From NCBI GenBank assembly GCA_019454045.1, contig SKCR01021112.1, forward strand, positions 1-64,000: a stretch of 64,000 nucleotides of DNA. The letters are read 5' to 3'. Of this stretch, positions 1-64,000 are shown in pieces. This DNA comes from Zanthoxylum bungeanum (Eukaryota; Streptophyta; Magnoliopsida; Sapindales; Rutaceae). The first letter of the stretch is position 1. Each line of letters starts with the position of its first letter. The notes below the pieces were generated by a model. It saw nothing but the letters and a program-made list of their open reading frames with translations. It had not been told where the DNA came from and ran no database searches. The position numbers were made by a program, and so were the translations under genes.

Positions 1-1680
1 ACTTCAAAGCTACCATTGGATTCCAATGACAAAGATTGATTTTAATTTTTGGAGTTTAAAGAGTCAAGAGTGTAATTAGTATAATATGATTTGAGTAATT
101 TTATATCAATCTGCAGGGTTTCCTACAATCGAAATATTATATTTAATTATTTATACCCACTTGTATTGTAATTGGACATTTTTTTATTGTGCCATGTATA
201 TTATAGAGAGGCGTTATACTTTATAGTCGTTCACTTTAAACAGTTTTGGTACAAAATCAAAGCTAATAATTGTATTTGATACCAATAATGAAGTAGTCAA
301 GTCTGCCGTGGGCTTCTTCCTATACAAGGAAAAATCTTATAATTTATTTACCTTATAATACTGATTATGTAGTAATCAACTTTCATTAGATAAACCACCA
401 ACATAAAATCAAATCAAAATTAGAACTCAATACCAAAGCTTCGATCCATTTAGACCTCATAATCGGTTTGTCGGATTTACAAATTCTGATCTCATCTCGA
501 ATTCATTTGATTTTTAAATCGGGATAAAATTTCGGCTCGAGGATGGTTTAAGATCCAAATTTTGAAAGGAATAAGAAATTTTTTAAGAAATAAATTGAGA
601 TTCTAAGATAAAATTAATCATAAATCATAGCCTTATAAAAATAGTCACAAATCTCAACCTTATTTTTTTGGAACACAAAATTATCTCGAATCCCGATTAA
701 AATTTTTAATCATATATAAATCATCTCAAATTTTATATCAAATGATATGAAGATTTGATGGAAATAAGAAATTTTCTATCCTAAATAGCTAGATTCATTT
801 AATAAACAGAAAAAACAAACACACACCAAAATAGTTAAAATGACGTGTGCAACTGGATCTGGAGGGCTCCCGTTTATTTTATATTAGAACCCGTTTCAGT
901 ATAATCTGGATCGTTTAATTTTGATCCAAAGAAAATAATTTTCTCTCTCCAATTTTTTTTCATCCAACGGCTCCAGATCCCAGCAACTATCCAAGTGTAC
1001 AGAACGTGCGTGCAGGAGCGGGGACGCAATCGTCATTGTCATACAAGACAAGGACAGCTGTTCCTTTCATCTACAAAGCTCTTGTCAATTTGTACAATAT
1101 ATACTTGCTGTATATTGTTAGTACGTTAATTATATACATACTATATAATATAACAATTCTAAAAAAGATAAAACGAAAAAAGATTTTTCATTTATTTCCC
1201 TAATTAAATTATAAATTATTAAAAAAAAACAAAATTTTAATTTAATTTCATGTTTGGCCGTGGATTTCTCTCTATCCACCCATCCATCTCTCTAGTATCC
1301 AATCCATCCACTCGTGTATTTGCTTTTGTTTTGCTACCACCACCTTAAAGCAGAGGGGAGAGAGTTGGACGCCCATACGACGGCGTACGGGGTAGCACCA
1401 GGCCCTGTTTTTGCGGCCTGGTTCGGTTTCATGGATTCTTCTTCTCCTTTCCAAGGTCGCTTCGTTCCCACGGCAATTGTACTTTTGATTAAATTCCCAG
1501 TGAAGTGAAAGTTCGATTCGTAAAAAAAAAAAGTTTTCATTTTTATATTAATTTTTTGTTCAATTAACTCTGGCGGACCTAAAGGGGACTCAAGCGTTTC
1601 TAAGATTTTCTTCGATTATAGCAGATCGATTCGATTTCAAATCAAAGAAAAAGAAGAGGAGAGGGATTTACCAGGCGAGG
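1..1680. other. AT-rich intergenic DNA and presumed upstream region of the GATL gene
   Basis: No coding or repeat structure is convincing here. A pyrimidine-rich patch at about 1266-1296 and a purine-rich leader at about 1640-1665 just before the ATG are typical of plant 5' regions. No TATA box could be placed with confidence; the AT content makes many chance matches. Confidence 0.5.
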
Positions 1681-2787
1681 ATGCTTTGGATTATGAGATT
1701 TTCTGGTTTTGTCTCAGCCGCTATGGTCATGATCGTTCTCTCTCCTTCTCTCCAATCGTTTCCTCCTGCCGAAGCCATTAGATCCTCCAGCCTCGATAGC
1801 TACCTGCGGTTACCTTCACAGGTGTCGGCCGTTGATTCGCTCGATAGGTTTTCTTTTCGGAAGGCCTCCGTATTCCGCAATGCAGATGAATGTGGTTCCA
1901 CTTCTGACAAAATCAACGGCGGGGGAGCCAGCGTTTGTGATCCTTCTCTGGTTCACGTCGCGATTACTCTTGATGTTGAGTACCTCCGTGGCTCAATCGC
2001 CGCCGTTCATTCCATTTTACAACACTCCACGTGTCCGGAGAATTTTTTCTTCCATTTTTTGGTCTCCGAGACCAATCTGGAAACCCTAGTGAGATCCACT
2101 TTCCCACAATTGAACTTCAAGGTGTATTATTTCGACCCGAATATTGTACGGAACCTGATCTCCACTTCCGTTAGGCAAGCGCTTGAACAGCCGTTAAATT
2201 ACGCCAGAAATTATTTAGCTGATCTTCTGGAGACGTGTGTTCGTAGAGTGATTTATTTGGATTCCGATTTAGTAGTGGTTGATGATATTGCAAAACTTTG
2301 GAATACAAGTTTGGGTTCAAGAACAATCGGGGCTCCTGAATACTGCCACGCAAACTTTACCAAATATTTCACGGCGACGTTTTGGCGTGAGAAGCGATTT
2401 TCCGCTACTTTTAACGGAAGGAAGCCGTGTTATTTCAATACTGGAGTTATGGTCATAGATCTGGTGAAGTGGAGGCGGGTCGGGTATACGAAGCGGATTG
2501 AGAGGTGGATGGAGATCCAGAAGAGTGACCGGATCTATGAGCTCGGTTCACTGCCTCCGTTCCTTTTGGTTTTTGCGGGACACGTGGCGCCAATGGAACA
2601 CAGGTGGAACCAGCATGGGTTAGGTGGGGATAACGTGCGTGGCAGCTGCCGTAACCTACACCCTGGTCCGGTTAGCTTACTACATTGGTCCGGTAGCGGG
2701 AAGCCGTGGCTCAGGCTTGACTCCAGGCGGCCCTGCCCGCTTGACGCACTATGGGCGCCCTATGATCTGTACGGACACTCAAATTGA
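1681..2787 (+). CDS. GATL: GATL-type galacturonosyltransferase-like protein (glycosyltransferase family GT8)
   Basis: A single 368-codon exon. Residues about 8-22 are hydrophobic, followed by a Ser/Pro-rich stretch, which fits an N-terminal secretory signal rather than a long stem. The GT8 core starts near residue 90 ([14 protein letters not shown]). The donor- and metal-binding DxD lies in [11 protein letters not shown] (D194, D196). The GT8 C-terminal motif HxxGxxKPW is H335-W343. Other family hallmarks are [41 protein letters not shown] and the ending LWAPYDLY. Length and lack of introns match plant GATL proteins, which act in the Golgi/ER in pectin or xylan synthesis (PARVUS/GATL1 is the best known). 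M5 is an alternative start. No frameshift or missing motif is seen. The exact GATL subgroup is not resolved. This is the only intact host gene in the window. Confidence 0.95.
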
Positions 2788-18072: not shown

Positions 18073-20377
18073 TTCTAAATATGATTTTGAAATATAGGGT
18101 TCATAAACTTTAATTAGGTATTTTGCTTGGAGCATGAAAATTCAAAATTGAGTTGTTAATTGATGTTAGATGATGATAACTTGGAGTTATGCATTGTTGG
18201 ATTGTTGAAAAATTGATTGGATCAAATTTCCCTAAATTCCCTATCATGGCCGAAACTTACCCTAGATTTACTCATGGTGATTTTTTAAATTTTGCCACTT
18301 GGATGTGTTAATGGCATGAAATAAATGTTGAATGTTGATTTTATTGGATTAGAATCAAATTGGATGTTATTTTTTATCATTGTCGTGAGAAGCATGTTTG
18401 TTGGAGACTTGATTTTGCTTCAATTTGTGTTGGACATGAATTGAAATGATAAGCATGATTAATTAGATTAATTAATATTTTGGAAATGTTAGATTAATTA
18501 ATTAGTTATGTTAATTACACTTAAATTAGATTAATGTAATATTTGAATATTGTATTAATGTAAATTAGTCACTAAAATATTAATTGGGCTAATTTGGTAT
18601 ATTTGGATTAATGGGCTTGGTTGGGCCAAGTTTGGTTGTGGACAATTGGGTTGGATCCAATTGGGCCATAAACTATTTCCATAAAAGTCCAAGATGTGAC
18701 TTTTATGCCTTTAATTATATAATGGCTCTAATGGGCCAAAATTAATTTATGGCATATGGTGATTCCTAAATGGGCCAATGCATTATGGGTTTGATCCATA
18801 ATGGCCAAAATTTCATGCCTAAAGAATTAATTAAAGCCCATTGGACCTAATAGAAATGGCATTGGATGCTAAATGGGCCTTTGAGACCATTTGGATTGGA
18901 TTTGGAATCCCAGTCAATAAATGCATTATATAATAAATGTAATTGTTTAATTTGGAATTTATTGAATACAATTTAAATTGGATTTAATATTGTAGTTCGA
19001 CATAATTCAAGAATACTTACTTTGAGTATTTATTCTTAAATGAGTTGGACTCGCGCAAATCAAATCGTTGTATGAACATTGGATGGTCATTAATTGAAGA
19101 ATTAATTAATTGGCTTAAATTGATTGACAACATGCTATGTGTGAATGCTTGGATGTATTTGTTTGAATAATGTATATCAGATGGATATTAGATGGGTGTG
19201 GGCAATTTTGGAAATTGCTGTAAATATTGTATTTATTTGAAATTGGACCTGCGCGTCCAGCCTATCACCTCTTATTCTCATTGTATTTCTCTTCTCACCA
19301 ATTCCCCTCAATGTAAATGAGGTTTCTTATAGTTTTATGTAATTGGGTGTATTTGAAGAATGTAAAGTGCTAGCGGGCAGGGAGAGAGATTTGTTCCAGG
19401 AATAAAATGTTGTGAATATCCATCCACATATCATTATTATATTTATCGCGCCTTATTATGCTTTTAGAATGCATGTTTAAGGGTGTATGAAGAGACCTAA
19501 TCAAAGATAATAAATTGGTTGCCAATTTATGAAAACACCCTCACATTTAATATTAAGCTTTTCCTTCCATTGTGTGGTTCTCTCTCAAGATCCAAGATTG
19601 GCTTTGATTTGTTGGCCAAAGTCAAGATCATTGTCTATCGCGGATGTGTTTGAACCATGAAAGCTTTGTTAATATCGCATGTCTTGGGCCGTTGTGACTT
19701 GTTGGCCAAAGTCAAGGTCACTACTGTTCATCGACGTGGATTACGAAGTTTTCCCACTGTCAATGGGTCGTGCTTAACTGGAATCATTAAGCTTGTTGAG
19801 CCAAAGCCAAGACTTAGTTGATTTAGAGGAGGAAACAGTTAGGAAATATATTAGATATATGTTTTGGACTTGGATGTCCGCCTACCGGATCTAGGAATTG
19901 GATGAGATCCAATTGATCTTAAAGATCTACCTAGTTAAATTTTATACAGCTTGTTGGCCAAAGTCAAGGTTTTGTATTATTTAACGGGATCCTAGCCCAC
20001 TAGGAAACTAGGTTTCCTGAGTACTCAACGGAGGGTTAGAGGCTCGCCGAAAATTAGTGGGAGGCTAGTATTAAATTTGCAATTTCGTTTAATACTCGTT
20101 AATATGCGCGCTCTATTATTTCTCGTTATTATATATATATTAGTTGGACTAATATTCATTTATTGTTTTCTTTGAACAATTAGACTGTACTCAACATTAC
20201 TCCATTTGTAGTTGGTTATATAGTTGGACTATAGTAACCATTGCATTTGAGTGTATACCCGAAACACTTGATTGGATAATTGGACTATAGCAATCAAAAT
20301 GGCTGGAAAGATAAGCGTTGGGGACATACATAATCAGGTGAGAATGTCTTTAACGACGTAAATTTTTCAGATGGGAA
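18073..20377 (+). other. Element B leader, non-coding, with short repeats
   Basis: A 2.3-kb AT-rich leader. TGGGCC/TGGGCT words cluster at 18606-18880. The word TTGTTGGCCAAAGTCAAG occurs at about 19608, 19698 and 19949, with a diverged copy at about 19790. No coding region was found until the gag region. Confidence 0.7.
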
Positions 20378-21106
20378 ATGAATCTCAGGATAATCCTGGG
20401 AGCTGAGAAGTTGCTCTATGTAATAGAGAGACTTCTCGGGCCTAAGCCCGGACTTGAGCAGCCAATGGAGCATGAGCTTTGGAAGACTCATCGTGATGAT
20501 AACTTTACTGCTCAATCTGTTATGCTTGCTGCAATGACTCCTCAGTTTAGTCGTCAGAACAAAGGATTGGATATTTATGCCATGATGTTGAAGTTGAAGG
20601 ATCTTCATAGATCTAATATTAGATCTCAGAAGTATGATTTGCAGAATAAGCTCTTTCTCTCTCGTATGTCAGAGGGTATATCTTTCGAACACTGCGTGTC
20701 GCAGATGATTGCTGACATCGAACAGTTGGGTCAGCTGGGCATTATCTTCGAGGCCGAGACTTCCATAGATTTGATCTTACAGTCTCTGCCCGACTGCTGG
20801 GGCGGGTTCGTCATGACCTATAACATGATAAACCAAGAGAAATCTCTTGGAGAGTTAATGGATATGCTGAAAGAGGCAGAGCCAGAGCTTCTGAAGGGCA
20901 AGAAGCGCGAGGCGCATCTTACTTCGACATCCAAGAAGGCCAAGGCTTGGCCGAAGACTTCTGGGGGTGTGAAGAAGAAAAAGAAGAAGGGCGAGGCTCA
21001 ATCGTCACAGTCTTCTGGGAAGACAAATGACATATCCCAAGACGTCTGCCTACACTGTGGCAAATGAGGTCACTGGAAGCGTGACTGCCGTAAGTTCAAG
21101 GCGGAC
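20378..21106 (+). pseudogene. Element B gag (copia)
   Basis: The copia gag fold is readable from MNLRIILGAEKLLYVIE through DLILQSLPDCWGGFVMTYNM to a Lys-rich tail. The zinc knuckle CLHCGK-stop-GHWKRDC is split by an in-frame TGA at 21065-21067. Upstream of 20378 the usual start is lost in stops. The length from this start to the knuckle (about 240 aa) fits the family, where the protein packages the element RNA. Confidence 0.88.
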
Positions 21107-21873: not shown

Positions 21874-21878
21874 TGTAT

Positions 21879-23924
21879 TGATGAGCGGAAAATATATCAA
21901 TATTTACCCGCCCTTTTACTTAATATTTTGTTTAGTTTCTCTCGGGTTTGATGAACGTTTTTGATATGTTTTATTTTATTTTGCAGATAAAATAATATCG
22001 GGACTCAATGAAATCATTTAGGATGAAATGTGGATCAAATAAGGGCAATTATTGGACTTGATATATTAATTTTGGAGATTGGAAACTTGAAAGGTCGTTT
22101 TTGACGAAGTGCAGTTTGGAAATTCCAGTTTTGCGCATCTGTCGTATTTTGAGCATAACTTTTTACTCCAATATCGGATTGAGCTGATTCAAGTTCCCGA
22201 TTAAAGAAGACTCAAAGATCTACAACTTTGAAAGAGAAAATATTTTCAAATTCTGATGATTTCATGACCGAAATTGATGAACCATCCAGAAGTGTGTGGA
22301 GTGTAATTATTAAAAGTCATTATCAATCATTTTCAAAGCAAAATATTAATTAATTAATAATTAATAAAATTATCAAATCAACACCAAACAAGATAAGAAA
22401 TTATTGGAGCAATTATGGATTTGGTGGAGTAATTAGTGGAGAAATTAATAATGTAATTGGTGGAGAAATTGATTGATGATTTGATGGTGGCAAAATTTGC
22501 CTATAATACCAAGCCATTTCATTTGTAAAATTCATACTTTCTTCTTTGAAATTCTTAATGAATAAATAAGAAGATTGTATCTAGTTTGTTTATTTTTAGT
22601 TTTCAGTAATTAATTTTCAGTTTCGCACTTTCTTTACTTTTCAGTTTTTACTTTCCGCGATTTACTTTTACGCACAGTACTTTTCTTTCTTTAATTTTTC
22701 AGTTTTTTACTTTTCAGTAATGAGGAGGTAATTTCCCAAGCTAGGGTGAAAGGTAATTCTTTTACTGTTACTATTTAGATTAATCTCCCTTAAAAATAAT
22801 ATATTCACTATTTAAAATACTGATTAATAAAGGATACCGCTATATTGGTCGGTTGGCAATTCAATTTAATCTGGTTTAAACCTGACTAATCAAGGATACC
22901 GCCAGATTGGTCGGTTGGTAAATTTATTTTGGTACCGCCCTTTATGGCTGGATTATGGACAAATATTACCGCCTATATGGCTGGTTGGACTTAATTTGAC
23001 TTAATCAGGATACCGCCAGATTGGTCGGTTGGTAATATAATAACAAGTTTATATATTATTTTATTGGAGATTTCTAAATAAGTAGTAGTAAAAGTAATTC
23101 CTTTTACCTTAGCATTTATTTTACTTTTTACTTTATGTCTTTTCTTTTCAGTATTTTTACTTTATGTCTTTTATTTTTCAGTTATTAGTCCTAGTTATGT
23201 GTTGTAACTAAATAGTTATCTGGGGTTGTGATGAATTTCAATATCACCGTTTATAAGGGTTAGATTATAGTTTGGGTATTATAAAGATTTATTTATTGAG
23301 TCTTAATCTTAATGCTTTTTATTAATTGGCCATTAATAAAATTGATTAGGTAAACTTAAAATGAACTAGACATAGGGATTTTAAGTTTAAGACCTTAGAC
23401 TCAATAGCCCACGATCTTCCTTGAGGATAGATAACCCTTTAATAGATTTCCTTACAGGATAGGATATACCTGTCGGGCGAGGGTAGCCATAATTGGAACT
23501 CAATCTTAATGAATCCAGATAATGTGGTTGACATAGGAATATGGTTCAATTGGGTTACACTGGGTATTTGTGTCTGACCATCGACAGATGCTTTCGCATA
23601 ATTTCGTGTTCCAGGTTAATAAATCAATATATTACCCAACTTTAAGATAACCACTTCATCTTAAAATGATATTGGAAGAAATCACAACCCTAGATAGTTT
23701 GTTAATATTGAATTTTCTTAAACCTATTTTCGACAATTTTATTTACTTGCTTTAAATTTAGAATCGTCACCATTTCAAATCAATCATCAACTTGTTAGAT
23801 ATTTAGTATCATTTGACCTCATAAAATTAATAGTTTAGATATTAAGTCCTCGTGGGATCGATATTTTTATACTACTTGAACGATACGTGCGCTTGCGTTA
23901 TACGTGTGTGTTTACGCGCGGTCA
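21879..23924 (+). repeat. 5' LTR of element C
   Basis: Starts TGATGAGCGGAAAATATATC and ends TTTACGCGCGGTCA. The TATA-like CTATAATA is at 22501 (CTATAAATA in the 3' LTR). At 22832-23036 it contains several diverged copies of a repeat whose core is ATACCGCCAGATTGGTCGG, alternating with shorter ACCGCC...TATGGCTGG copies. CT/TTCAG-rich tracts occur at 22610-22710. Confidence 0.93.
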
Positions 23925-23930
23925 AGTTTT

Positions 23931-23948
23931 TGGCGCCGTTGCCGGGGA
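23931..23948 (+). other. Primer-binding site of element C (tRNA-Asp)
   Basis: TGGCGCCGTTGCCGGGGA is an exact complement of the 18-nt 3' end of plant tRNA-Asp, six bases (AGTTTT) after the LTR end. Confidence 0.92.
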
Positions 23949-24060
23949 CTTATATTTCTTGAGTTATTAATTTTGAAGCTATCTAATTTACTTGTATCTA
24001 ATTTTCTTTATTTTATCTGTAATTTTTATTTCTTTCTTTTATTTTCAGGTGGTTAAACAA

Positions 24061-24401
24061 TGGAACACTATTGGGAGATTGAAAGATCAAGAGCTTTACA
24101 AGAAGATACACCCCAAATCTGGGAGCAACAGTCCGGTTTTCTGAGGCCTGTTGTCCAGCCCAACAATTATCACTGGATGCCAGAACCAAGCAATACCACA
24201 TTTGCTCAACAGAATGCAATGGAGAGATGTGAGATATGTGACGGTAACCACCCAAGTAATTATTGCGAGTACAACTACAATCCAGGGTGGCAGAGCTATC
24301 AAAATCCTTCATGGTACGAAGAACCATCATACTTTCCATCTTATCCACCATCCACCTACTATCCTCAACAAAAACCAGAACCATCAGAGAAGAACAATTG
24401 A
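24061..24401 (+). CDS. Element C gag C-terminal-like fragment with one zinc knuckle
   Basis: 113 residues starting MEHYWEIERSRALQ. C57-x2-C60-x3-H64-x4-C69 (CEICDGNHPSNYC) resembles the gag nucleocapsid knuckle with one residue fewer than standard before His. It is followed by the Tyr/Pro/Trp-rich YNPGWQSYQNPSWYEE, as in Athila/Tat gag proteins. The N-terminal capsid part is absent. Near 24390 the frame shifts by one base into the next ORF, so the two were probably one protein. Confidence 0.7.
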
Positions 24402-25339
24402 TTGATATGCTCAAATTTTTTTCCAAGAAACGAGACGAAAAGTTGGATACAATGCTTGAAACAAGCCTGAAGCAACTTGAAAGTATTCAGAGACAATCAG
24501 AATTCATTCAGAGGATGACAGATCAAATGAGACAATTAACAGAAAACCAGAACTACATACCTCAAGAACCAGTTTCAGATGACACTGATGAAGCCTTCAA
24601 GTACCTAGAAATCCACAAAGACACTTCAACAGAGGAGGAGGCTGAGCAGTATCAACAACCAGAGGTATCAGTTCAGGAATCCGAATCGGTAAAGTCTCAA
24701 TTTGACTTTTATTATTCAGATTCTGACGAAGATGAAGCTGATCTTTTTGTACCAACTGCTCCAACAACGGAGGATCAAACTTTCAATCCTCAAAATGAAG
24801 ATCTTGGAGCATGCTTTACCATGATGTTTGAAGAAGATCTATCTGAACCATCCATTCCAGTCATATCAGAGGATGAAGACCTAATGTCAGAAACATCTTT
24901 GCATCCTCTGGTTGACAATTTTGAAGCATGTATTTCACAGATGACCGATGAAGAGCTGAATACAAAAATTTTACAATTCATCTGTGAAGAAAATGTGGAG
25001 CAAGAAACAGAGCAAATGAAGGAGCAAATGTCTGACCTTAATAAAGATCCAGAGCATTCAGGAGAAACATCGCTGTTTTGGGGAGTACAAATTAAAGATA
25101 TCAACCAGAAGCTTGACATAATGGAATTTCCATTCCAAGTCAAGCATCATACGAGACCTCCTGATTTTCTTTCTTTCTTTGCAGGAACCACTGGAGTAAC
25201 AAGGAGCAAAAAGGTGGCACGAGTACTGAATGAGACAAAACTCTTTTTGCCACTTTACCGTTGGAAGAGACCCTTCAAAAGCAACGCTCACGGGATTGTC
25301 TTTAATCGGACATCTAAAATGACATTGAAACCTCCTTAA
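24402..25339 (+). CDS. Element C acidic ORF of unknown function
   Basis: Reads on from the zinc-knuckle fragment after a one-base shift, as about 310 residues (frame of the start at 24263). The first part (about EEQLIDMLKFFSKKRDEKL to MRQLTENQ) is likely coiled coil and matches the position of the gag C-terminal helix. The middle is strongly acidic (DSDEDEADLF, EDEDLMSETS, EEDLSEPS). The end is basic and aromatic (PLYRWKRPFKSNAHG). I do not recognise a domain. It ends at TAA (25337-25339), just before the conserved AGCGCTAGCAGGGAGGCAAC motif. It may be a lineage-specific gag extension. Confidence 0.6.
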
Positions 25340-25354
25340 CAGATAAATTTCAGT

Positions 25355-25406
25355 CACGTCTGGCTGAAGACGAAAAATTTAGCGCTAGCAGGGAGGCAAC
25401 CCATGC
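25355..25406 (+). other. Conserved post-gag motif of the tRNA-Asp elements (copy in C)
   Basis: CTGGCTGAAGACG followed by TTAGCGCTAGCAGGGAGGCA and ACCCATGC. The same block occurs in A (44904-44957) and, on the minus strand, in E (47920-47965), each time just after the last coding region. It contains AGCGCT and GCTAGC palindromes and a GGG...CCC pairing. Confidence 0.8.
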
Positions 25407-25876
25407 AATTTGTTGTAATTTCTGTTTTATATTTTGTGTATACATGTTGTAAATTTTTTTTTTAATTTTGTGTGTTATTTTTTTGTAGGGAAGGCACAAA
25501 CGAAGCATTTTAAGACAGAAGGAATTGTGTTTGGCAATCAAAGATGAGAAACAATTCATTAGCGATGGCTGAATAAGGAATGAAATCTTGAGACCATCCT
25601 AATGAATTTATACTAAGCGAGTGGCGTATTGCGTACACAATTCCGTTGCCGTAATTATTGCTTTGATTCGCTTTTCTATTGTAATTATCTTTATTTTCGT
25701 AGACAGGATCCAGACTTTTTGACCTTTCACGATCTCTTTTGTTGTTTTAGCTAACAATCGTCCTTTGGAAGATATTAGTGCTATTATTACTCACCCTTTT
25801 TCAGGTACTATAAATTCAGCCCGTCATTGCACTTTTGAAGGCGTCCAGAGTTGAAAAAGAAATACAAAAAAAAAAT

Positions 25877-26538
25877 ATGGAAGCCACTTCAAGAAACGAG
25901 TTGAAAACATCTGCGTGTTTTGCGGTAGTAGTGTTGGTACTAAGCCACAATACATAGAAGCAGCACAGGAATTGGGTCGAGTCTTAGCTGCAAGGAATAT
26001 GCACTTAATATATGGCGGAGGAATCTTGGACTTATGGGGATCGTTTCAAAGGCTGTACAGGAAGGAGGCAGTCATGTTTTAGGAATCATCCCAAAACCTT
26101 TGGCAGAGGCAAATCTTATTGGTTCAACAAACGGAGAGGAACTGATCGTGCCAGGTATGTCTGAACGACTGGTAGAAATGATTAACCGTGCTGATGCTTT
26201 TATCGCTTTGCCAGGTGGCTTGGGCACATTGGAGGAAATTTTTATAGTTCTATCTTGGGCGAACCTGAACATACACCAAAACCGCTTGGACTGCTTAACG
26301 TTGATGGATTTTATGATTTTCTTTGTGTGTTTTTCTTGATGATGCTCGGAGAAATGGGTTCGTGTCAAAACCTATGAAAGAACTCCTCTTCACTGCCAGA
26401 ACTGCTTCGGATCTAATAGACCAACTCATAGCCTATGAACCACAAGTTGACCCTATCATTTCAAAGATAATTGGTCTGGGGACGATCGTGGTAAGAGGCG
26501 TCGGGTTAATCTGGATCTTAACCTTTAATTTCCTGTAG
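25877..26538 (+). pseudogene. LOG-like: Captured LOG-type cytokinin riboside 5'-monophosphate phosphoribohydrolase, intronless, frameshifted
   Basis: LOG enzymes release active cytokinin bases from their nucleotides. Three frames in succession read as one LOG protein of about 220 codons, the usual size: ENICVFCGSSVGTKPQYIEAA (frame of 25903), MGIVSKAVQEGGSHVLGIIP (26034), LPGGLGTLEE (26207-26237, the LOG signature PGGxGTxxE), the conserved Arg/Glu of MSERLVEM (about 26160), LLNVDGFYDF, then NGFVSKPMKEL to a stop at 26536-26538. The ATG at 25877 is one frame off the body. Every shift lies in a short A or T run (about 25895, 26022, 26280, 26332) and equals one missing base, so these may be sequencing errors. 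Plant LOG genes normally have several introns; this copy has none, which implies capture from mRNA. It sits between the gag region and the polypurine tract of C. Confidence 0.88.
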
Positions 26539-27860
26539 AATTTCTGCTAACCAGGTATTATCTTCTAAACTCTTCTTCTACTGTTTAAGACATTGGGGAC
26601 AATGTCTCATTTAGGTTTGGGGGAGGAAATTAGTTGATCAGTACCTTATTTTTTTTTTAGTTTTGTGTTATTTTTATTTTTTAGTCCAAAATTTTTCGAA
26701 AAATACAAAAAAATTGAAATTTTTTTCAAAAATTACAAAAATATTTTGCGTTTTTTTGTTTTTTATTTTTGACTAAAAAGGTGAAATTGGTACGAGATAG
26801 CTGAGTAAGGAGTTTCCACTCCTGAGACGTATCTCAAACCTATTTCGAAACAAGTTAATTTTTGTTTATTTCATTTTGAATTATTTAATTTGTGAATTCT
26901 CCTTAAAACGGACTAAATGGATCTTCATATGCTTAGTTAGCAAATATTATCAACATATATAGTAACATACAGACATGAGCTAAAATTGAAAAGTTTGTAA
27001 TATTCAGTGCTCTAGTTTAATTGGAGGAAGCATCTCAAAAAGCAATGGAATAAAAAAAATAAAAAATAAAAACGTCCGAGATCCGAGTTATTAAGTCTGT
27101 AAGGGTGTTTTAACACCTAGTGCCCTAAAACCAACTGGTTTGGGAGTCACTGGCCCAACACTCGCTACATGGATCAAAGATGCTGCAAAAATATATTTAT
27201 ATCTGAAGTCTGGGTAATTAAGTCCGTAGGGGTGTCTTAACACCTGGTGCCCTAAAACCAACTGGTTTGGGAGTCACCGACCTAACACTCATTACATAGC
27301 TGGAAGATATTGTATATAAATAAAAAATAGAGAAAAAATCAAAGAAAAAATCAGAAAAATCAGAAAAATTATTCCATTGCTGCAAAAAAGGTGTGAAATC
27401 TGATAGAACTTTAGGACAAAAATATTACTCTCTTATCAACTACACTTATGACTGTTGTGGGCAAAAATGAGTTGATTAATATTTGTTGGCTGTGTATATG
27501 GAGAATGGTAAACAATCGGAGAATTTACTTATTCAGTAATTTAAAATAAAACAAAACAACTAGTAACTTGGAGTAGAAGTTTCACCTGATTAGTCACTAA
27601 CATCTTTATTCTCTTTTCGCTTGTCTTTTTGCTTTTGTGTGCATTAGTTTTAATACTTTTTACTTTTGTAAAATGTTTGTGGGTATCATTGCTGTAAACC
27701 CTCACGAGACTACAACTCGTCCACTAGGGACACCTAGGGGTTTAAAGGCTTGTTGCATATGCTAAATGCAACCGTGATCCCTACGAAAGTGGCTTAGTTT
27801 AATTTTAATTTTATTTTGTTGTTTTGCTCGAGGACTAGCAAAATGTTAGGTTTGGGGGTG
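26539..27860 (+). other. Element C 3' non-coding region
   Basis: Holds a first polypurine-like block CATTGGGGACAATGTCTC plus TTAGGTTTGGGGGAGG at 26591-26627. A two-copy tandem repeat follows at about 27076-27300 (GGTGTTTTAACACCTAGTGC and CAACTGGTTTGGGAGTCAC in each copy). The three-hairpin module is at 27704-27772 and the final polypurine tract at about 27845-27860. No coding region. Confidence 0.7.
27704..27772 (+). ncRNA. Conserved 69-nt three-hairpin module (copy in C)
   Basis: Three consecutive perfect stems: ACGAG/CTCGT (27704-27708 with 27716-27720), CTAGG/CCTAG (27724-27728 with 27733-27737) and GTTGCAT/ATGCAAC (27752-27758 with 27766-27772). Copies in A (51573-51641) and E (46744-46812, minus) are also exactly 69 nt. 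The stems are kept while loop bases vary. Its role is unknown; it may be an RNA structure for packaging, dimerisation or transcript ending. Whether it acts as RNA is inferred. Confidence 0.55.
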
Positions 27861-29906
27861 TGATGAGCGGAAAATATATCAATATTTACCGCCCCTTTTA
27901 CTTAATATTTTGTTTAGTTTCTCGGGTTTGATGAACGTTTTGATATGTTTTATTTTATTTTGCAGATAAAATAATATCGGGACTCAATGAAATCATTTAG
28001 GATGAAATGTGGATCAAATAAGGGCAATTATTGGACTTGATATATTAATTTTGGAGATTGGAAACTTGAAAGGTCGTTTTTGACGAAGTGCAGTTTTGGA
28101 AATTCCAGTTTTGCGCATCTGTCGTATTTTGAGCATAACTTTTTACTCCAATATCGGATTGAGCTGATTCAAGTTCCCGATTAAAGAAGACTCAACGATC
28201 TACAACTTTGAAAGAGAAAATATTTTCAAATTCTGATGATTTCATGACCGAAATTGATGAACCATCCAGAAGTGTGTGGAGTGTAATTATTAAAAGTCAT
28301 TATCAATCATTTTCAAAGCAAAATATTAATTAATTAATAATTAATAAAAATTATCAAATCAACACCAAACAAGATAAGAAATTATTGGAGCAATTATGGA
28401 TTTGGTGGAGTAATTAGTGGAGAAATTAATAATGTAATTGGTGGAGAAATTGATTGATGATTTGATGGTGGCAAAATTTTGCCTATAAATACCAAGCCAT
28501 TTCATTTCATTGTAAATACTTTCTTCTTTGAAATTCTTAATGAATAAATAAGAAGATTGTATCTAGTTTGTTATTTTTAGTTTTCAGTAATTAATTTTCA
28601 GTTTCGCACTTTCTTTACTTTTCAGTTTTTACTTTCCGCGATTTACTTTTACGCACAGTACTTTTCTTTCTTTAATTTTTCAGTTTTTACTTTTCAGTAA
28701 TGAGGAGGTAATTTCCCAAGCTAGGGTGAAAGGTAATTCTTTTACTGTTACTATTTAGATTAATCTCCCTTAAAAATAATATATTCACTATTTAAAATAC
28801 TGATTAATAAAGGATACCGCTATATTGGTCGGTTGGCAATTCAATTTAATCTGGTTTAAACCTGACTAATCAAAGATACCGCCAGATTGGTCGGTTGGTA
28901 AATTTATTTTGGTACCGCCTTTATGGCTGGATTATGGACAAATATTACCGCCTATATGGCTGGTTGGACTTAATTTGACTTAATCAGGATACCGCCAGAT
29001 TGGTCGGTTGGTAATATAATAACAAGTTTATATATTATTTTATGGAGATTTCTAAATAAGTAGTAGTAAAAGTAATTCCTTTTACCTTAGCATTTATTTT
29101 ACTTTTTACTTTATGTCTTTTACTTTTCAGTATTTTACTTTATGTCTTTTATTTTTCAGTTATTAGTCCTAGTTATGTGTTGTAACTAAATAGTTATCTG
29201 GGGTTGTGATGAATTTCAATATCACCGGTTTATAAGGGTTAGATTATAGTTTGGGTATTATAAAGATTTATTTATTGAGTCTTAATCTTAATGCTTTTTA
29301 TTAATTGGCCATTAATAAAATTGATTAGGTAAACTTAAAATGAACTAGACATAGGGATTTTAAGTTTAAGACCTTAGACTCAATAGCCCACGATCTTCCT
29401 TGAGGATAGATAACCCTTTAATAGATTTCCTTACAGGATAGGAATATACCTGTCGGGCGAGGGTAGCCATAATTGGAACTCAATCTTAATGAATCCAGAT
29501 AATGTGGTTGACATAGGAATATGGTTCAATTGGGTTACACTGGGTATTTGTGTCTGACCATCGACAGATGCTTTCGCATAATTTCGTGTTCCAGGTTAAT
29601 AAATCAATATATTACCCAACTTTAAGATAACCACTTCATCTTTAAAATGATATTGGAAGAAATCACAACCCTAGATAGTTTTTAATATTGAATTTTCTTA
29701 AAACCTATTTTCGACAATTTTATTTACTTGCTTTTAAATTTAGAATCGTCACCATTTCAAATCAATCAATCAACTTGTTAGATATTAGTAATCATTTGAC
29801 CTCATAAAATTAATAGTTTAGATATTAAGTCCTCGTGGGATCGATATTTTTATACTACTTGAACGATACGTGCGCTTGCGTTATACGTGTGTGTTTACGC
29901 CGGTCA
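27861..29906 (+). repeat. 3' LTR of element C
   Basis: Matches the 5' LTR base for base except for a handful of substitutions and several one- to three-base indels. It ends ACGCCGGTCA and is followed by TSD TGTAT (29907-29911), after which the integrase frame of B resumes. TATA box TATAAAT at 28484-28490. Confidence 0.93.
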
Positions 29907-29911
29907 TGTAT

Positions 29912-33067: not shown

Positions 33068-33265
33068 GTCGCCCCCACTTTGATGGGACTTGTGCAGTGT
33101 GTGAGAATGACAATCCTATCAAAGTCTATGCAATGTATTTTTACTTACCTGGCTCGCCAGCTGTCACCCGGTTTGCCTGCTGTGTTGTGTGAGTTGAGTT
33201 GGTCTGGTTGTGCCATTTTCGGCATGCTGAACCCCATTCCCGAGGCGTTGCTGAAGTGATGACTG

Positions 33266-33890
33266 TCCATTTCGAACTGTGCTCCATTTTCGGAGTGCCA
33301 TTTTCGGCGACTGATGAGATAATGGTCCATTTTCGAACCGTGCTCCATTTTCGGAGTGCCATTTTCGACGAGATGTGATAATGGTCCATTTTCGAACCGT
33401 GCTCCATTTTCGGAGTGCCATTTTCGGCGGCTGATGAGATAATGGTCCATTTTCGAACCGTGCTCCATTTTCGGAGTGCCAATTTCGGCGAGCTGATGAG
33501 ATAATGGTCCATTGTCGAACCGTGCTCCATTTTCGGAGTGCCATTTTCGGCGACTGATGAGATAATGGTCCATTTTCGAACCGTGCTCCATTTTCGGAGT
33601 GCCATTTTCGACGAGATGTGATAATGGTCCATTTTCGAACCGTGCTCCATTTTCGGAGTGCCATTTTCGGCGGCTGATGAGATAATGGTCCATTTTCGAA
33701 CCGTGCTCCATTTTCGGAGTGCCAATTTCGGCGAGCTGATGAGATAATGGTCCATTGTCGAACCGTGCTCCATTTTCGGAGTGCCAATTTCGGCGAGCTG
33801 ATGAGATAATGGTCCATTTCCAAACCGTGCTCCATTTTCGGAGTTCCATTTTCGGCGAGTTGATGAGATAATGGTCCATTTCCGAACCGT
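33266..33890. repeat. Minisatellite with about 60-nt units in a four-unit higher-order pattern
   Basis: Units contain CGTGCTCCATTTTCGGAGTG and GCTGATGAGATAATGG. Four variant endings (CGACTGATGAG, ACGAGATGTG, GCGGCTGATGAG, GCGAGCTGATGAG) occur in the same order twice, with the marker TCCATTGTCG at 33508 and 33751. The higher-order period is therefore about 242-243 nt. Confidence 0.88.
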
Positions 33891-34439
33891 TGCTGATGAG
33901 AGATAGTCCATTTCCAAACCATGACTGATATGAGAGTGGTCCATTTCTGAACCGTTGCTGATATGAGAGTGGTCCATTTCCGAACCGTTGCTGATGAGAG
34001 ATAGTCCATTTCCGAACCGATTTGATGATGTAGTAGATATAGTGGCGAGGCGCCTCGACCTCTGGGCTTTGTTCCCGATTCACCGAATGTGAACTGTGAT
34101 AATGATGCAGGAGGCCCTCAACCCTGGGAAGCATCCCGGAACTACAACCGACAACGGAGGCACCTCGACCCTGGGCACCTCGACCCAACACCGCTGACAA
34201 TAGGGACCTCGCCCTCGAACTGATAATGATGTAGTGGGCACCTCGACCCGGAACTACAACCGACAACGGGGGCACCTCGACCCTGGGCAACTCGACCCAA
34301 TACTGCTGACAATATGGACCTCACCCTCGAACTGATAATGTAGTGGGCACCTCGACCCTGGGACTCATCCCGGAACTACAACCGACAACGGGGGCACCTC
34401 GACCCAATACCGCTGACAATAGGGACCTCCCCCTCAAAC

Positions 34440-46628: not shown

Positions 46629-48066
46629 AACACCCCTAAATTTAAGATTTTGCTAGTCCCGAGCAAAAGATAAAATAAAAACTAAATTCAAATTAACAAA
46701 TAAAAATTACTAAATTAACTAAGTTATTTTCGTAGGGATCACGATTGCATTTAACGTATGCAACAAGCCTTTAAACCCCTAGGCGGCCCTAGTGGACGAG
46801 TTATAGTCTCGTGAGAGCTTACATCGACGATACCCACAAACGTCATTCACACACATGCAATCATACAAAAATATAAAAAATAAAAAAAGCATAGTCCCGA
46901 TAGTTACGCATAAAATTATCCTCAAAGAAAGCTTATAAATGAAATTAAAGAACCTTCAAAGTACGCAATTGCAACTCGAATCCAAGTTCTTGAATAAATT
47001 ATCTAAGCTAGACTCACAGTGTGTGTGTGTGTGTGAAGGTTCAGTCACAGCTTGATTCCTAAGTAAGCAAACTTAATGTTTTCGTTTAAAAATTGGGATC
47101 GATGGGTCAAACCAACCTAGATATCTTAATTATGCTATGTAATTGCTTTATTTTGTGCTCAGTATGATATGATTTTTCTTTTCTTTTCTTGTCTCTTTTT
47201 ACTTCTCTTTTTGCATTTTTTTATTCAACTCACCTACCCCTTAAGGTAGCATTTCTCCTCATGGTGGTCCTAATACTCGTCCATGGGTAGCTTCACGCTT
47301 ATCGGTTATAGGTGGTTTATTTTCTTTCTTTTAGAGACTTTTTTTCCTTTTATTTCTTATCCACCATACATCATAACACTAGCAAATCAAGATAGAATCT
47401 AAGAAAACAGTCATTCATCGACATGCAATTTCTTCAACTAGTCACCTTGTCAACTACTTAAGTGATCACTGCTAAAAACCTATTTTTAAGTGCTTACGAG
47501 TCTAACATAGATCAACTATTCAAGGCATTAGATAAAAGTATATCGGGCACTTATCGCTTCTAAAATTTCACCCATAAACAATACAAAATTCATCATAGAA
47601 TTTATGTTTTACTATCTAGGATTAAAAATAAATAAATAATTTTTTTCAGCTTAACTTAACAAATAAATAACAAGTAAGCAACATGCACACACCCCCAAAC
47701 TTAAAACTTGCATTGTCCTCAATGTAAGATAAAAATAAAGAACAAGAGTGAGGAACAACACTACCGTGCATGGAGTTGATCAGGCTCCTACTTGTTAGAA
47801 TTTAGTTGCGCGGGCATTGTGTGTCTCGTGCTACCTGCATAAATAGCATGCAAAACAAATAAATAAACAAATAGCACACGATAAAATAAAAATTAAAAAT
47901 AATAAAACGAATGCAAGAGTTGTCTCCCCGCTAGCGCTAAGTTTAACGTCTTCAGCCAGACGCAACCACCCAATTGGTGGTCATGGTAGCTTCTTCTTGT
48001 GTATCCACTGATTGCTTTGACATGAAAAAATGGCTTCGCGGCTGTGGCAGTTTTATCCAAATACCC
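46629..48066 (-). other. Element E 3' non-coding region
   Basis: On the minus strand, after the gag stop, come the post-gag motif (47920-47965), the TTGAGGACAATGCAAG block (about 47705-47722), block M2 (47231-47315), a (GT)n run at 47020-47034, the three-hairpin module (46744-46812) and a polypurine tract next to 46629. Confidence 0.8.
46744..46812 (-). ncRNA. Conserved 69-nt three-hairpin module (copy in E)
   Basis: Minus-strand stems ACGAG/CTCGT, CTAGG/CCTAG and GTTGCAT/ATGCAAT (last pair G-U). Loops are ACTATAA, GCCG and ACGTTAA, differing from C at several loop positions while pairing is kept. RNA function is inferred. Confidence 0.55.
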
Positions 48067-50827: not shown

Positions 50828-51748
50828 AAATATTAGAAATGATAAGTTTTTTAAAGTGTTTATCTGATACCTTCACTAGTTAATCTAGGTTAGACTCGTA
50901 AACACTTAATTATGGGTTTTTAGCAGTGACAACTTAAGTAGTTGGCAAAATGACTAGTTGAAGAAATTGCATGTCGATGAATGAACGTTTGCTTAGATGT
51001 CTATCCTGATTTGCTAGTGTTATGATGTGTGGTATGGTTAAGAAAAAAAGTCTCTAAGAAAGAAATTAAACCACCTATGACCAATAAGCGTGAAGCTACT
51101 CATGGGCGAGTGTTAGGACCACCATGAGGAGAAATGCTACCTTAAAGGATATGTGTGTTGAAAAAAAAGAAAAAGAAAAAGAGAAAAATTCAAAAACAAA
51201 GAAAAAAGAGACAAAAAAGAAAAAAAATCATACCATGCTGAGCACAGAAAGGCAATTACAGGGCACATTTGAGATATCTAGGTTGGTTTGGCCCATCGGA
51301 TTCCAATTTTAAAACGAAATCACTGAGTTGGCTTACCTAGGAATCAAGCTATGAATGAACTTTTATACACACACACACTATGAGTCTGGCTTAGATGATT
51401 TATTCAAGGACTTGGATTCGAGTTACATTGAGTACTTTGAAAGTTCTCTGATTTCATTACTAAGCATTCGTTGAGGACAATAATTGTGTAACTATTGAGA
51501 CTATTTTATTTTATTATTTTGCATGATTGTATATTTTGAATGACGTTTGTGGGTGTCGTCGCTGTAAGCCTTACGAGAATATAACTCGTCCACTAGGGAC
51601 ACCTAGGGGTTTAAAGGCTTGTTGCATATGTTAAATGCAATCGTGATCCCTACGAAAGTGGCTTAGATAGTATTTATTTATTTATTTAGTTCTTATTTTC
51701 TTTTCGCGCTTGAATTGCTAGGGACGTGCAATAAGCTGGTTGAGGTTG
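50828..51748 (+). other. Element A 3' non-coding region, right of E
   Basis: Contains block M2 (51071-51155), an A/G-rich run (51160-51230), the three-hairpin module (51573-51641) and a polypurine-like AAGCTGGTTGAGGTTG just before the 3' LTR. No coding region; the 62-codon frame at 51124 is composition-driven. Confidence 0.75.
51573..51641 (+). ncRNA. Conserved 69-nt three-hairpin module (copy in A)
   Basis: Stems ACGAG/CTCGT (51573-51577 with 51585-51589), CTAGG/CCTAG (51593-51597 with 51602-51606) and GTTGCAT/ATGCAAT (51621-51627 with 51635-51641). Loops AATATAA, GACA and ATGTTAA. RNA function is inferred. Confidence 0.55.
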
Positions 51749-62766: not shown

Positions 62767-63076
62767 TGATGAATGGTATTTATATCACTATTTCCCACTC
62801 ATTTAACCTAATATTTTCTATAGTTTCTTGAGTTTTGTGAACGTTTTGATGTGTTTTGTTGTTATTTTGCAGATAAATAAAGTTTGGAAAGCATTGGAGG
62901 CAATTTGGGGCAAAAACGGACAAAAATGCGTCAACAAGGATATTTTGGTCTTAAGCGCGTCGCGACGCTAAGTCTTCCTCGTCGCGACGTCTAAAATGCG
63001 CCGAACAGTGCTAACGTGCGCCGGGTCCACAAATCAGAATCTGAGAAAAGTTTGACTTTGCTAAAATACGCCGTGC

Positions 63077-63441
63077 CACGTGTCACCATCACAGCCGATC
63101 TGCTAACATGCGCCGTGCCACGTGTCAGCATCCTACGGTGCCGACAGTCATCATCGCCACGTGTTCCACGTGTCATTCCATGTCATCAGCCACGTCAGCA
63201 AGTCAACAAGTCAAATTGCCACGTGTCGTTCCACATCATCATCAGCCAATCATGAAGTGACACGTGTCGCAATTCTATGGTGCCGACAGTCTCTTTCCCA
63301 CGTGTCGCCACATCGTCGCCACGTCAGTATCAATTATTGGATATCCTATCCTTATCTGACACGTGGCGGATAAAAATATCAGCGACCAATCAGAAGCCGC
63401 CACGTGTCACAATAATTGAAGCCCAACCACTCTGCCACGTG
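63077..63441. promoter_or_regulatory. Cluster of ten G-boxes (CACGTG) in the U3 of LTR H
   Basis: Perfect CACGTG at 63077, 63119, 63158, 63167, 63220, 63261, 63299, 63360, 63401 and 63436, mostly as GCCACGTGTC, plus extra ACGT cores (63191, 63320, 63492). The cluster ends about 118 bp upstream of the TATA box. G-boxes are bound by plant bZIP and bHLH factors (ABA, light, clock). Activity is inferred. Confidence 0.8.
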
Positions 63442-63558
63442 TCACCTTATCAGCTTATCCAGAATCTTCAAACCAGCGAACCAGAGCGTGCCACGTCGAC
63501 AAATCCGGCGTCGCGACGCTGAAGACCTGGCGTCGCGACGCTGGATCCTACCGAGGCC

Positions 63559-63565
63559 TATAAAT
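63559..63565 (+). promoter_or_regulatory. TATA box of LTR H
   Basis: TATAAAT within GGCCTATAAATTGAGC, at the place equivalent to GCCTATAAATACC in the C LTR. Confidence 0.75.
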
Positions 63566-64000
63566 TGAGCTCGAGATTTCAGAATTCAGTGCACCTTCCT
63601 CTCTCTTCAATTCTATCTAAAGAGATAGTTTCTCTCTCTACTTTCTTTTAATTTTTAGTTTTTTAGTTTTTAGTTTTGTAATTAATTTTAATTACGTTTT
63701 GTTAATATAGTAATTTAATTTTTACTTTTAACTTTTTACAGTTTTTATTATTTACCATGAGGAGGTAACTCCCCCAGCTAGGGTGAAAGGTAATTCTTTT
63801 ACTGTTGCTACTTAGATTAATCTCCCTTAAAAATAATATATTCACTATTTAAAATATTGACTTAAAAAGGATACCGCCAGATTGGTCGGTTGGTAATTCA
63901 TTTTAATCTGATTTAAACCTGACTAATAAAGGATACCGCCAGATTGGTCGGTTGGTAATTTAATTTTGGATCCGCCTTTATGGCTGGTTGGACTTAATTT

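Follow-up and report, generated by a model that had tools for sequence, protein, structure and literature searches.

Steinbauerova et al. 2011 (Genetica 139:1543) reportedly found similarity to LOGL4 in two Athila-like elements, and the LOG-like extra ORFs of that study presumably lie in Athila-like elements, as we propose for the lineage studied here. Non-autonomous LTR elements of the LARD and TR-GAG kinds have long LTRs, a primer binding site (PBS), a polypurine tract (PPT) and TSDs, and carry no pol. The available sections of PMC9289625 report a YgdH domain, otherwise of the LONELY GUY (LOG) family, in Ty3/gypsy elements of Citrus and Populus and call this finding ‘in line with’ Steinbauerova et al. 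2011. LOG cargo in LTR elements is therefore already known, and the sequence-only reading of the present DNA, which knew of no description of such cargo, was not borne out on this point. Among open-licence PMC papers we found none tying LOGL4 to retrotransposons or lysine decarboxylase to Athila LTR retrotransposons; by term search, the 2026 review PMC13317346 had no LOG, LONELY GUY, cytokinin or Athila, and YgdH and LONELY GUY were not mentioned in PMC11963269 and PMC7264820. The same open-licence literature yielded no report of a pairing of LOG with a gene for a nucleic-acid-binding protein (NABP), of the C-terminal tail or of selection on LOG in pol-less elements, as described below.

A LOG gene inside an LTR element

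In the window, i.e. the whole 64,000-nucleotide stretch of Zanthoxylum bungeanum DNA that was analysed, an LTR element with a TGTAT TSD on either side was read from the sequence at 21879-29906 (Table 1). Between its PBS, which we take to be of the tRNA-Asp type, and its PPT lies a LOG coding region without an intron. Frame 25944-26336 matched PF03641 (E 6.9e-24) and the LOG frame matched the Arabidopsis LOG structure 2a33 (E 2.3e-26), which, together with the paired LTRs, TSDs, PBS and PPT, confirms that a LOG gene is located inside an LTR element. The earlier description of ‘nearly the whole’ LOG coding region was right as to LOG but too modest as to extent, as the whole region, from the ATG at 25877 to the stop at 26526-26528, is present. 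The long ORF upstream includes a gag-like stretch recognized by eye (CEICDGNHPSNYC, YNPGWQSYQNPSW), with no Pfam domain above cut-off, and its counterpart in copy L054 is a single stop-to-stop frame of 445 codons. Neither an RT nor an NABP match was found in the window element. Upstream, at 20354-21064, is a gag frame of the Ty1/copia type (PF14223); the LTR element was probably inserted into that Ty1/copia-type element.

Table 1 Coordinates of the window element and of the NABP ORFs of two sister copies (window positions unless a copy is named)
Feature	Position	Strand	Details
TSD, left	21874..21878		TGTAT
5' LTR	21879..23924	+	2046 bases, TGATGAGCGG...CGGTCA
Primer binding site	23931..23948	+	TGGCGCCGTTGCCGGGGA, read in sequence
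Broken long ORF	24057..25339	+	Frames 24057-24401 and 24260-25339
LOG-family coding region	25877..26528	+	Intronless, frame broken here; PF03641, 2a33
C-terminal tail codons	26493..26525	+	Basic cluster and LxLxL (EAR-like)
Polypurine tract	27848..27860	+	AGGTTTGGGGGTG, read in sequence
3' LTR	27861..29906	+	2046 bases
TSD, right	29907..29911		TGTAT
Carlavirus-type NABP ORF	L060:4532-5077	-	Directly upstream of LOG
Carlavirus-type NABP ORF	L061:3380-3924	+	Directly upstream of LOG

Elsewhere in the window, a relative of the element has left a partial and more diverged LTR at 62768-64000, pieces of which are 78-89% identical to the element LTR, and the approximately 150 bases directly upstream of the 3' LTR are repeated at 46689-46841 (minus strand) and 51534-51694 (plus strand) with 85-86% identity. 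A second LOG match was not found at the DNA level within the window. A long open frame at 1552-2784 (plus strand) encodes a glycosyltransferase of family 8 (PF01501, E 1.5e-59), which was the sole host-type domain among the eight long window frames scanned. Tandem arrays with periods including 61 and 243 bases occupy 33265-34019, where the minus strand is open in three overlapping frames of 312-391 amino acids.

We then searched the genome (3.96 Gb) for further copies. The LOG DNA query gave 5248 first-look candidates, and all 40 of the 40 scored matched over the full or nearly full length at 98-100% identity; a canonical LOG protein query gave 58,158, of which 150 were scored and 133/150 had no stop in the match. 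When a different part of the element served as query, there were 6912 first-look candidates, of which 40 were scored and 20 of those fetched. LOG was present in 18 of these 20 copies and absent in two, so that the proposed check for LOG in other copies came out in its favour. In another set of 20 copies, fetched with their flanks, both LTRs were found in 12, with perfect and mutually different 5-bp TSDs in ten of the 12 and an identical PBS site in 11 of the 12. The paired LTRs, PBS, PPT, TSDs and several insertions are those of an LTR retrotransposon, and these data show that the LOG ORF travels as part of a discrete element with LTRs, PBS and TSDs.

In some of the copies chosen by their flank, LOG had been swapped in from other subfamilies, as indicated by a LOG of 27% divergence behind a 96% identical gag-like flank. 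Such exchange of LOG segments is also what would be seen if the element had repeatedly captured LOG from a host gene that lacks introns and belongs to the clade of the element LOGs, with selection acting in the host gene and not in the element. However, hits of this clade are very many in the genome and dispersed over contigs, and recombination between element subfamilies accounts for the exchange, which leaves repeated capture improbable. A single-copy parent did not turn up either, in searches of a kind that would not have recognized one.

In comparison with copy L002, four single-base deletions break the window LOG frame. At two of them a gap was found in 0/28 other compared loci, whereas L003, L004 and L014 are gapped within 3 bases of the third and L030 within 3 bases of the fourth, a coincidence that weakens the claim that the breaks are private to the window. 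The 217-amino-acid LOG frame is uninterrupted in 9/30 loci, a set in which L022 and L023 are apparently one insertion seen twice. Between the two LTRs of the window element there are 22 substitutions (seven of them transitions) and 19 indels, and over the LTR pairs of the 12 complete copies the totals are 220 substitutions and 155 indels. By comparison, five further repeat pairs in the window, taken together, have 228 substitutions and 11 indels. The ratio of indels to substitutions between LTRs of the element family (window and L054-L073) is thus far above that of other window repeats, which suggests unpolished assembly in young repeats, and low-complexity LTR sequence could add to the indels. 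Because of this excess, some of the frame breaks in the window LOG may be assembly indels.

The LOG protein: fold, tail and selection

The protein of the uninterrupted copy L002 matched PF03641 at 8.3e-36 and TIGR00730 with 169.2 bits (cut-off 96.35). With NF058542, the curated LOG enzyme model (cytokinin riboside 5'-monophosphate phosphoribohydrolase equivalog), it scored 118.4 bits, far under the cut-off of 300, in a prokaryote-made library for which we had no canonical plant LOG control. An AlphaFold2 model (pLDDT 85.7), whose best PDB match was 2a33 with a TM score of 0.95 by target, shows the predicted LOG fold to be kept, with a C-terminus that is disordered from residue 203. Among long members of the element-LOG clade (210 amino acids or more), PGGxGTxEE is present in 58/59, Arg98 in 57/59, and Glu120 and Glu121 in 59/59. 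L002 has the motif and the Arg/Glu pair too, and both the PGGxGTxxE motif and the conserved Arg/Glu pair picked out by the sequence-only reading were thus borne out.

At the C-terminus, LxLxL was found in 50/59 long clade members and in 0/120 canonical LOGs, the latter being the rows closest to 2a33, with other LOG types hardly sampled. Where present it usually follows a basic cluster, and L002 ends LDLNL; when the last 30 residues were shuffled, LxLxL appeared in 2%, a figure that disregards relatedness. EAR motifs are defined as LxLxL or DLNxxP. Proteins with such motifs bind TOPLESS and SAP18, according to PMC6916588. A divergent subfamily (L087, L088, L090 and L091), which also sits behind a 96% identical gag-like flank, has Gln at position 98 in 4/4 copies, as do P0024 and P0027, and in the three of these four copies for which a tail was found this reads LDIDLN(R/W), without LxLxL. 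Because of this subfamily, the putative enzyme and EAR functions fit the window subfamily and most of the clade, but not all of it.

Selection was assessed from dN/dS values derived by the Nei–Gojobori method against L002, for which 18 copies were used. At dS 0.07-0.11, nine of ten copies displayed LOG dN/dS values of 0.14-0.27, the tenth (L076) having 0.42, and four copies at dS 1.2-1.4, where dS above 1 is near saturation, gave 0.12-0.16. For five closer copies the changes were too few for a judgement: L024 and L075 differ from L002 by nonsynonymous changes alone (5 and 4 respectively) and L077 by synonymous changes alone, L078 has a value of 0.20 and L082 one of 0.92 on 4 changes. L088 compared with L090 gave 3.69 on 7 changes. 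As the gag of sister copies has dN/dS values of 0.11-0.26, these estimates show purifying selection on LOG about as strong as on sister-copy gag. LOG variants found in at least three copies comprise 14 nonsynonymous and 19 synonymous changes, against a neutral share of 0.757 nonsynonymous taken from the singleton spectrum (binomial p 4.6e-5); when set against mixed-sample singletons (43 nonsynonymous and 23 synonymous), with three near-duplicates, four divergent copies and two LOG-less copies left out, the contrast had a p value of only 0.051. In the first sample LOG diverged by 0.7% and the 3' flank by 4.3%, a difference that we do not count towards selection, LOG similarity having been the basis on which those loci were picked.

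That last p value would also suit a LOG ORF that has no role and merely hitch-hikes with a successful element, as would the broken frame of the window copy itself and the singletons of the closest group, which look neutral (22 nonsynonymous changes and 3 stops to 5 synonymous changes). A neutral passenger is nevertheless unlikely in view of the dN/dS of 0.12-0.27 between subfamilies, with the one exception of 0.42, the depletion of nonsynonymous changes among shared variants relative to the neutral share, and the retention of LOG by copies without pol. The cargo gene is real, belongs to an element lineage of very high copy number and is most likely under selection.

For the Gln-for-Arg subfamily, dN/dS was again low (0.12-0.16 against L002), which means either that the enzyme is not what selection maintains there or that the low value is owed mainly to the other branch. 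The substitution lowers our confidence in the explanation that we prefer and raises it in another, namely that the LOG protein, with its LOG/SLOG fold and its basic and EAR-like tail, would act through binding, whether as a nuclear factor that binds nucleotides or as a repressor tether, and not as a cytokinin enzyme. A conserved basic and LxLxL tail that is disordered in the model and absent in 120/120 canonical LOGs would suit such a role, as would low dN/dS in a subfamily without the Arg. Yet active-site residues are kept in 57 to 59 of the 59 long members, and LxLxL is lost in 9/59 as well as in the Arg-less subfamily itself; a binding role may be entertained, but we consider it rather doubtful.

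Gag and NABP in sister copies

Of the 20 copies fetched with flanks, L056, L060, L061 and L066 carry gag, with the same motif in all four, and that of L061 matched PF03732 (E 5.9e-21). In these copies we recognized protease-like and integrase-tail stretches by eye, and none of the four has an RT between gag and LOG, where the two stretches lie too close together. An RT match in L061 (7884-8207) was discarded as the RT of the element since it lies beyond LOG, in neighbouring sequence. In L094, upstream of the NABP-LOG pair of contig C20442, gag occupies the place expected for RT, and an RT-bearing autonomous partner was not found. The PF03732 gag of the sister copies and the tRNA-Asp-type PBS fit non-chromoviruses, and the element is probably a pol-less, non-autonomous derivative of a Ty3/gypsy lineage of the Athila type, the Athila assignment being our assumption.

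Directly upstream of LOG, L056 and L066 have a carlavirus-type NABP ORF, as do L060 and L061. In L060 this is uninterrupted, encodes 182 amino acids and scored 28.9 with Carla_C4 (cut-off 20.9) and 27.5 with Viral_NABP (cut-off 23); the L061 ORF is likewise above the Pfam cut-offs. With E values of up to 0.01 accepted, PF01623 was found in 39 and PF05515 in 36 of 41 NABP members. Four near-invariant cysteines are spaced CX2CX4CX3C. The structure model of the NABP is of low confidence (pLDDT 60.1, pTM 0.34). Its dN/dS points to weaker constraint than on LOG, with values of 0.38-0.62 at dS 0.07-0.09 and of 1.4 and 2.0 for the two closest pairs.

A genome search with the NABP gave 46,136 first-look candidates, and 150/150 of those scored had 92-100% identity along almost the full length. 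Six contigs were common to the scored LOG and NABP hits, and on five of these (C20442, C41828, C50431, C14183 and C49206, but not C25206) the NABP lies immediately 5' of LOG, in the same orientation. In addition, the Acer yangbiense protein P0353 is an NABP joined to LOG in one gene model; its LOG part, at 24.5 bits just under the Pfam cut-off of 26.3, resembles by eye the deepest-branching P0038 type. A protein search with the NABP gave 140 matches, and among the 120 listed, all organism-named ones were from plants and none bore a virus name. Scanning viral contigs with A1 produced 23 loci, whose best segments were 26-45% identical. An NABP-LOG pair in Populus was set aside as a candidate: P0078 and P0268 are on contigs of equal length (4511), but the contigs of P0052 and P0313, also equal in length (1033), cannot be one contig.

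The viral NABP family is known for silencing suppression, and the NABP-bearing relatives of the element might counter silencing. We put forward, tentatively and as a possibility, a selected cassette of an RNA-virus-type NABP and a nuclear, EAR-tailed LOG in which LOG outlasts pol and control of host hormones or transcription would aid the spread of the element. Its occurrence here and, within a single gene model, in Acer (P0353) would make the cassette old. Flexivirus replicase-like sequence has been described in cucumber (PMC3136472), in the available part of which the terms nucleic acid-binding and cysteine-rich are absent.

Origin of the element LOG and comparison with known systems

In a tree of 71 rows, built without 11 close duplicates and from rows of at least 200 amino acids, the element LOGs fall in a 55-row clade with support of 100/98, outside which lie 13 canonical rows, LOG8 and two bacterial rows. 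Retrotransposon-borne status is shown within this clade for the window type and for the P0020/P0024 type, the latter tied to a retrotransposon via L087, L088, L090 and L091; two Populus proteins named LOGL10 also fall in it. Host-like LOG pieces made up 29/150 scored hits of a 64-amino-acid query (53-86% identical), and 23 of these 29 end at query residues 43-45, as at an exon end, which supports the premise that plant host LOGs have introns. The remaining 121/150 hits are 33-42% identical and run on past residues 43-45.

An intronless, LOG-like ORF in the window and host-like hits that look split into exons are what would be expected if one element had recently taken up the spliced mRNA of a host LOG, the window copy being a young pseudogene. 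The element LOGs, however, form their own clade and, across 150 scored hits, share 47-50% identity with canonical LOG3, other plants have 217-amino-acid relatives of them, and element-LOG subfamilies in the same genome are separated by dS above 1. We therefore regard a recent capture as highly improbable; to judge from the tree and these distances, there was no recent single capture, LOG having probably been acquired long ago. Of the proposal that capture went through spliced mRNA, what stands is that this is plausible at some past time, and what falls is its recency. The suggested siRNA against the parent LOG gene is unlikely, because host LOG pieces of the canonical type have diverged too far from the element LOG.

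Our preferred explanation, to which we give a probability of about 0.58, is that long ago a processed LOG gene entered a pol-less derivative of a Ty3/gypsy (probably Athila-type) lineage, which has since retained it as functional cargo. Transcription from the LTR would then yield LOG protein, which the basic tail may direct to the nucleus, where release of active cytokinin could give an advantage to cells with an active element; alternatively, the LxLxL tail might act on TOPLESS-type corepressors to the same end. The benefit of LOG probably goes to the element's own transmission, because copies without pol have kept it. If this explanation is true, a mobile element has kept the gene of a hormone-activating enzyme under selection through very large amplification, and the question of why plant retrotransposons keep host genes becomes testable. 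Some LOG-like plant gene models, e.g. the two Populus LOGL10 proteins, may then be genes of retrotransposons and not host cytokinin genes, and the NABP finding would tie a plant RNA-virus protein family to retrotransposons.

Like the Citrus and Populus YgdH elements, the window element has a LOG-family domain as an extra ORF of a probable Ty3/gypsy LTR element, but for YgdH the available sections of PMC9289625 are silent on a tail, selection, an NABP and pol-less copies. Canonical plant LOGs (At2g37210, i.e. 2a33, and At5g11950, i.e. 1ydh) share the predicted fold, PGGxGTxxE and length, whereas the element LOG is approximately 49% identical to them, forms a separate clade, is intronless and has the additional basic and LxLxL tail. 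The 2-ODD/ALKBH-type RNA demethylase ORF of orchid Gypsy elements, as described in PMC9289625, is likewise a host-type enzyme carried as cargo through many replication rounds; it is a different enzyme with activity shown in vitro, whereas that of the element LOG is putative. As to the carlavirus cysteine-rich nucleic-acid-binding protein (PF01623 and PF05515), the 182-amino-acid protein of the sister copies matches both families above their cut-offs, but is retrotransposon-encoded, has its cysteines spaced as given above and is missing from the window element. Finally, the window element resembles LARD and TR-GAG elements in lacking pol while having long LTRs, a PBS, a PPT and a TSD, and differs from them in that its lineage keeps a non-gag cargo gene which is uninterrupted in many copies.
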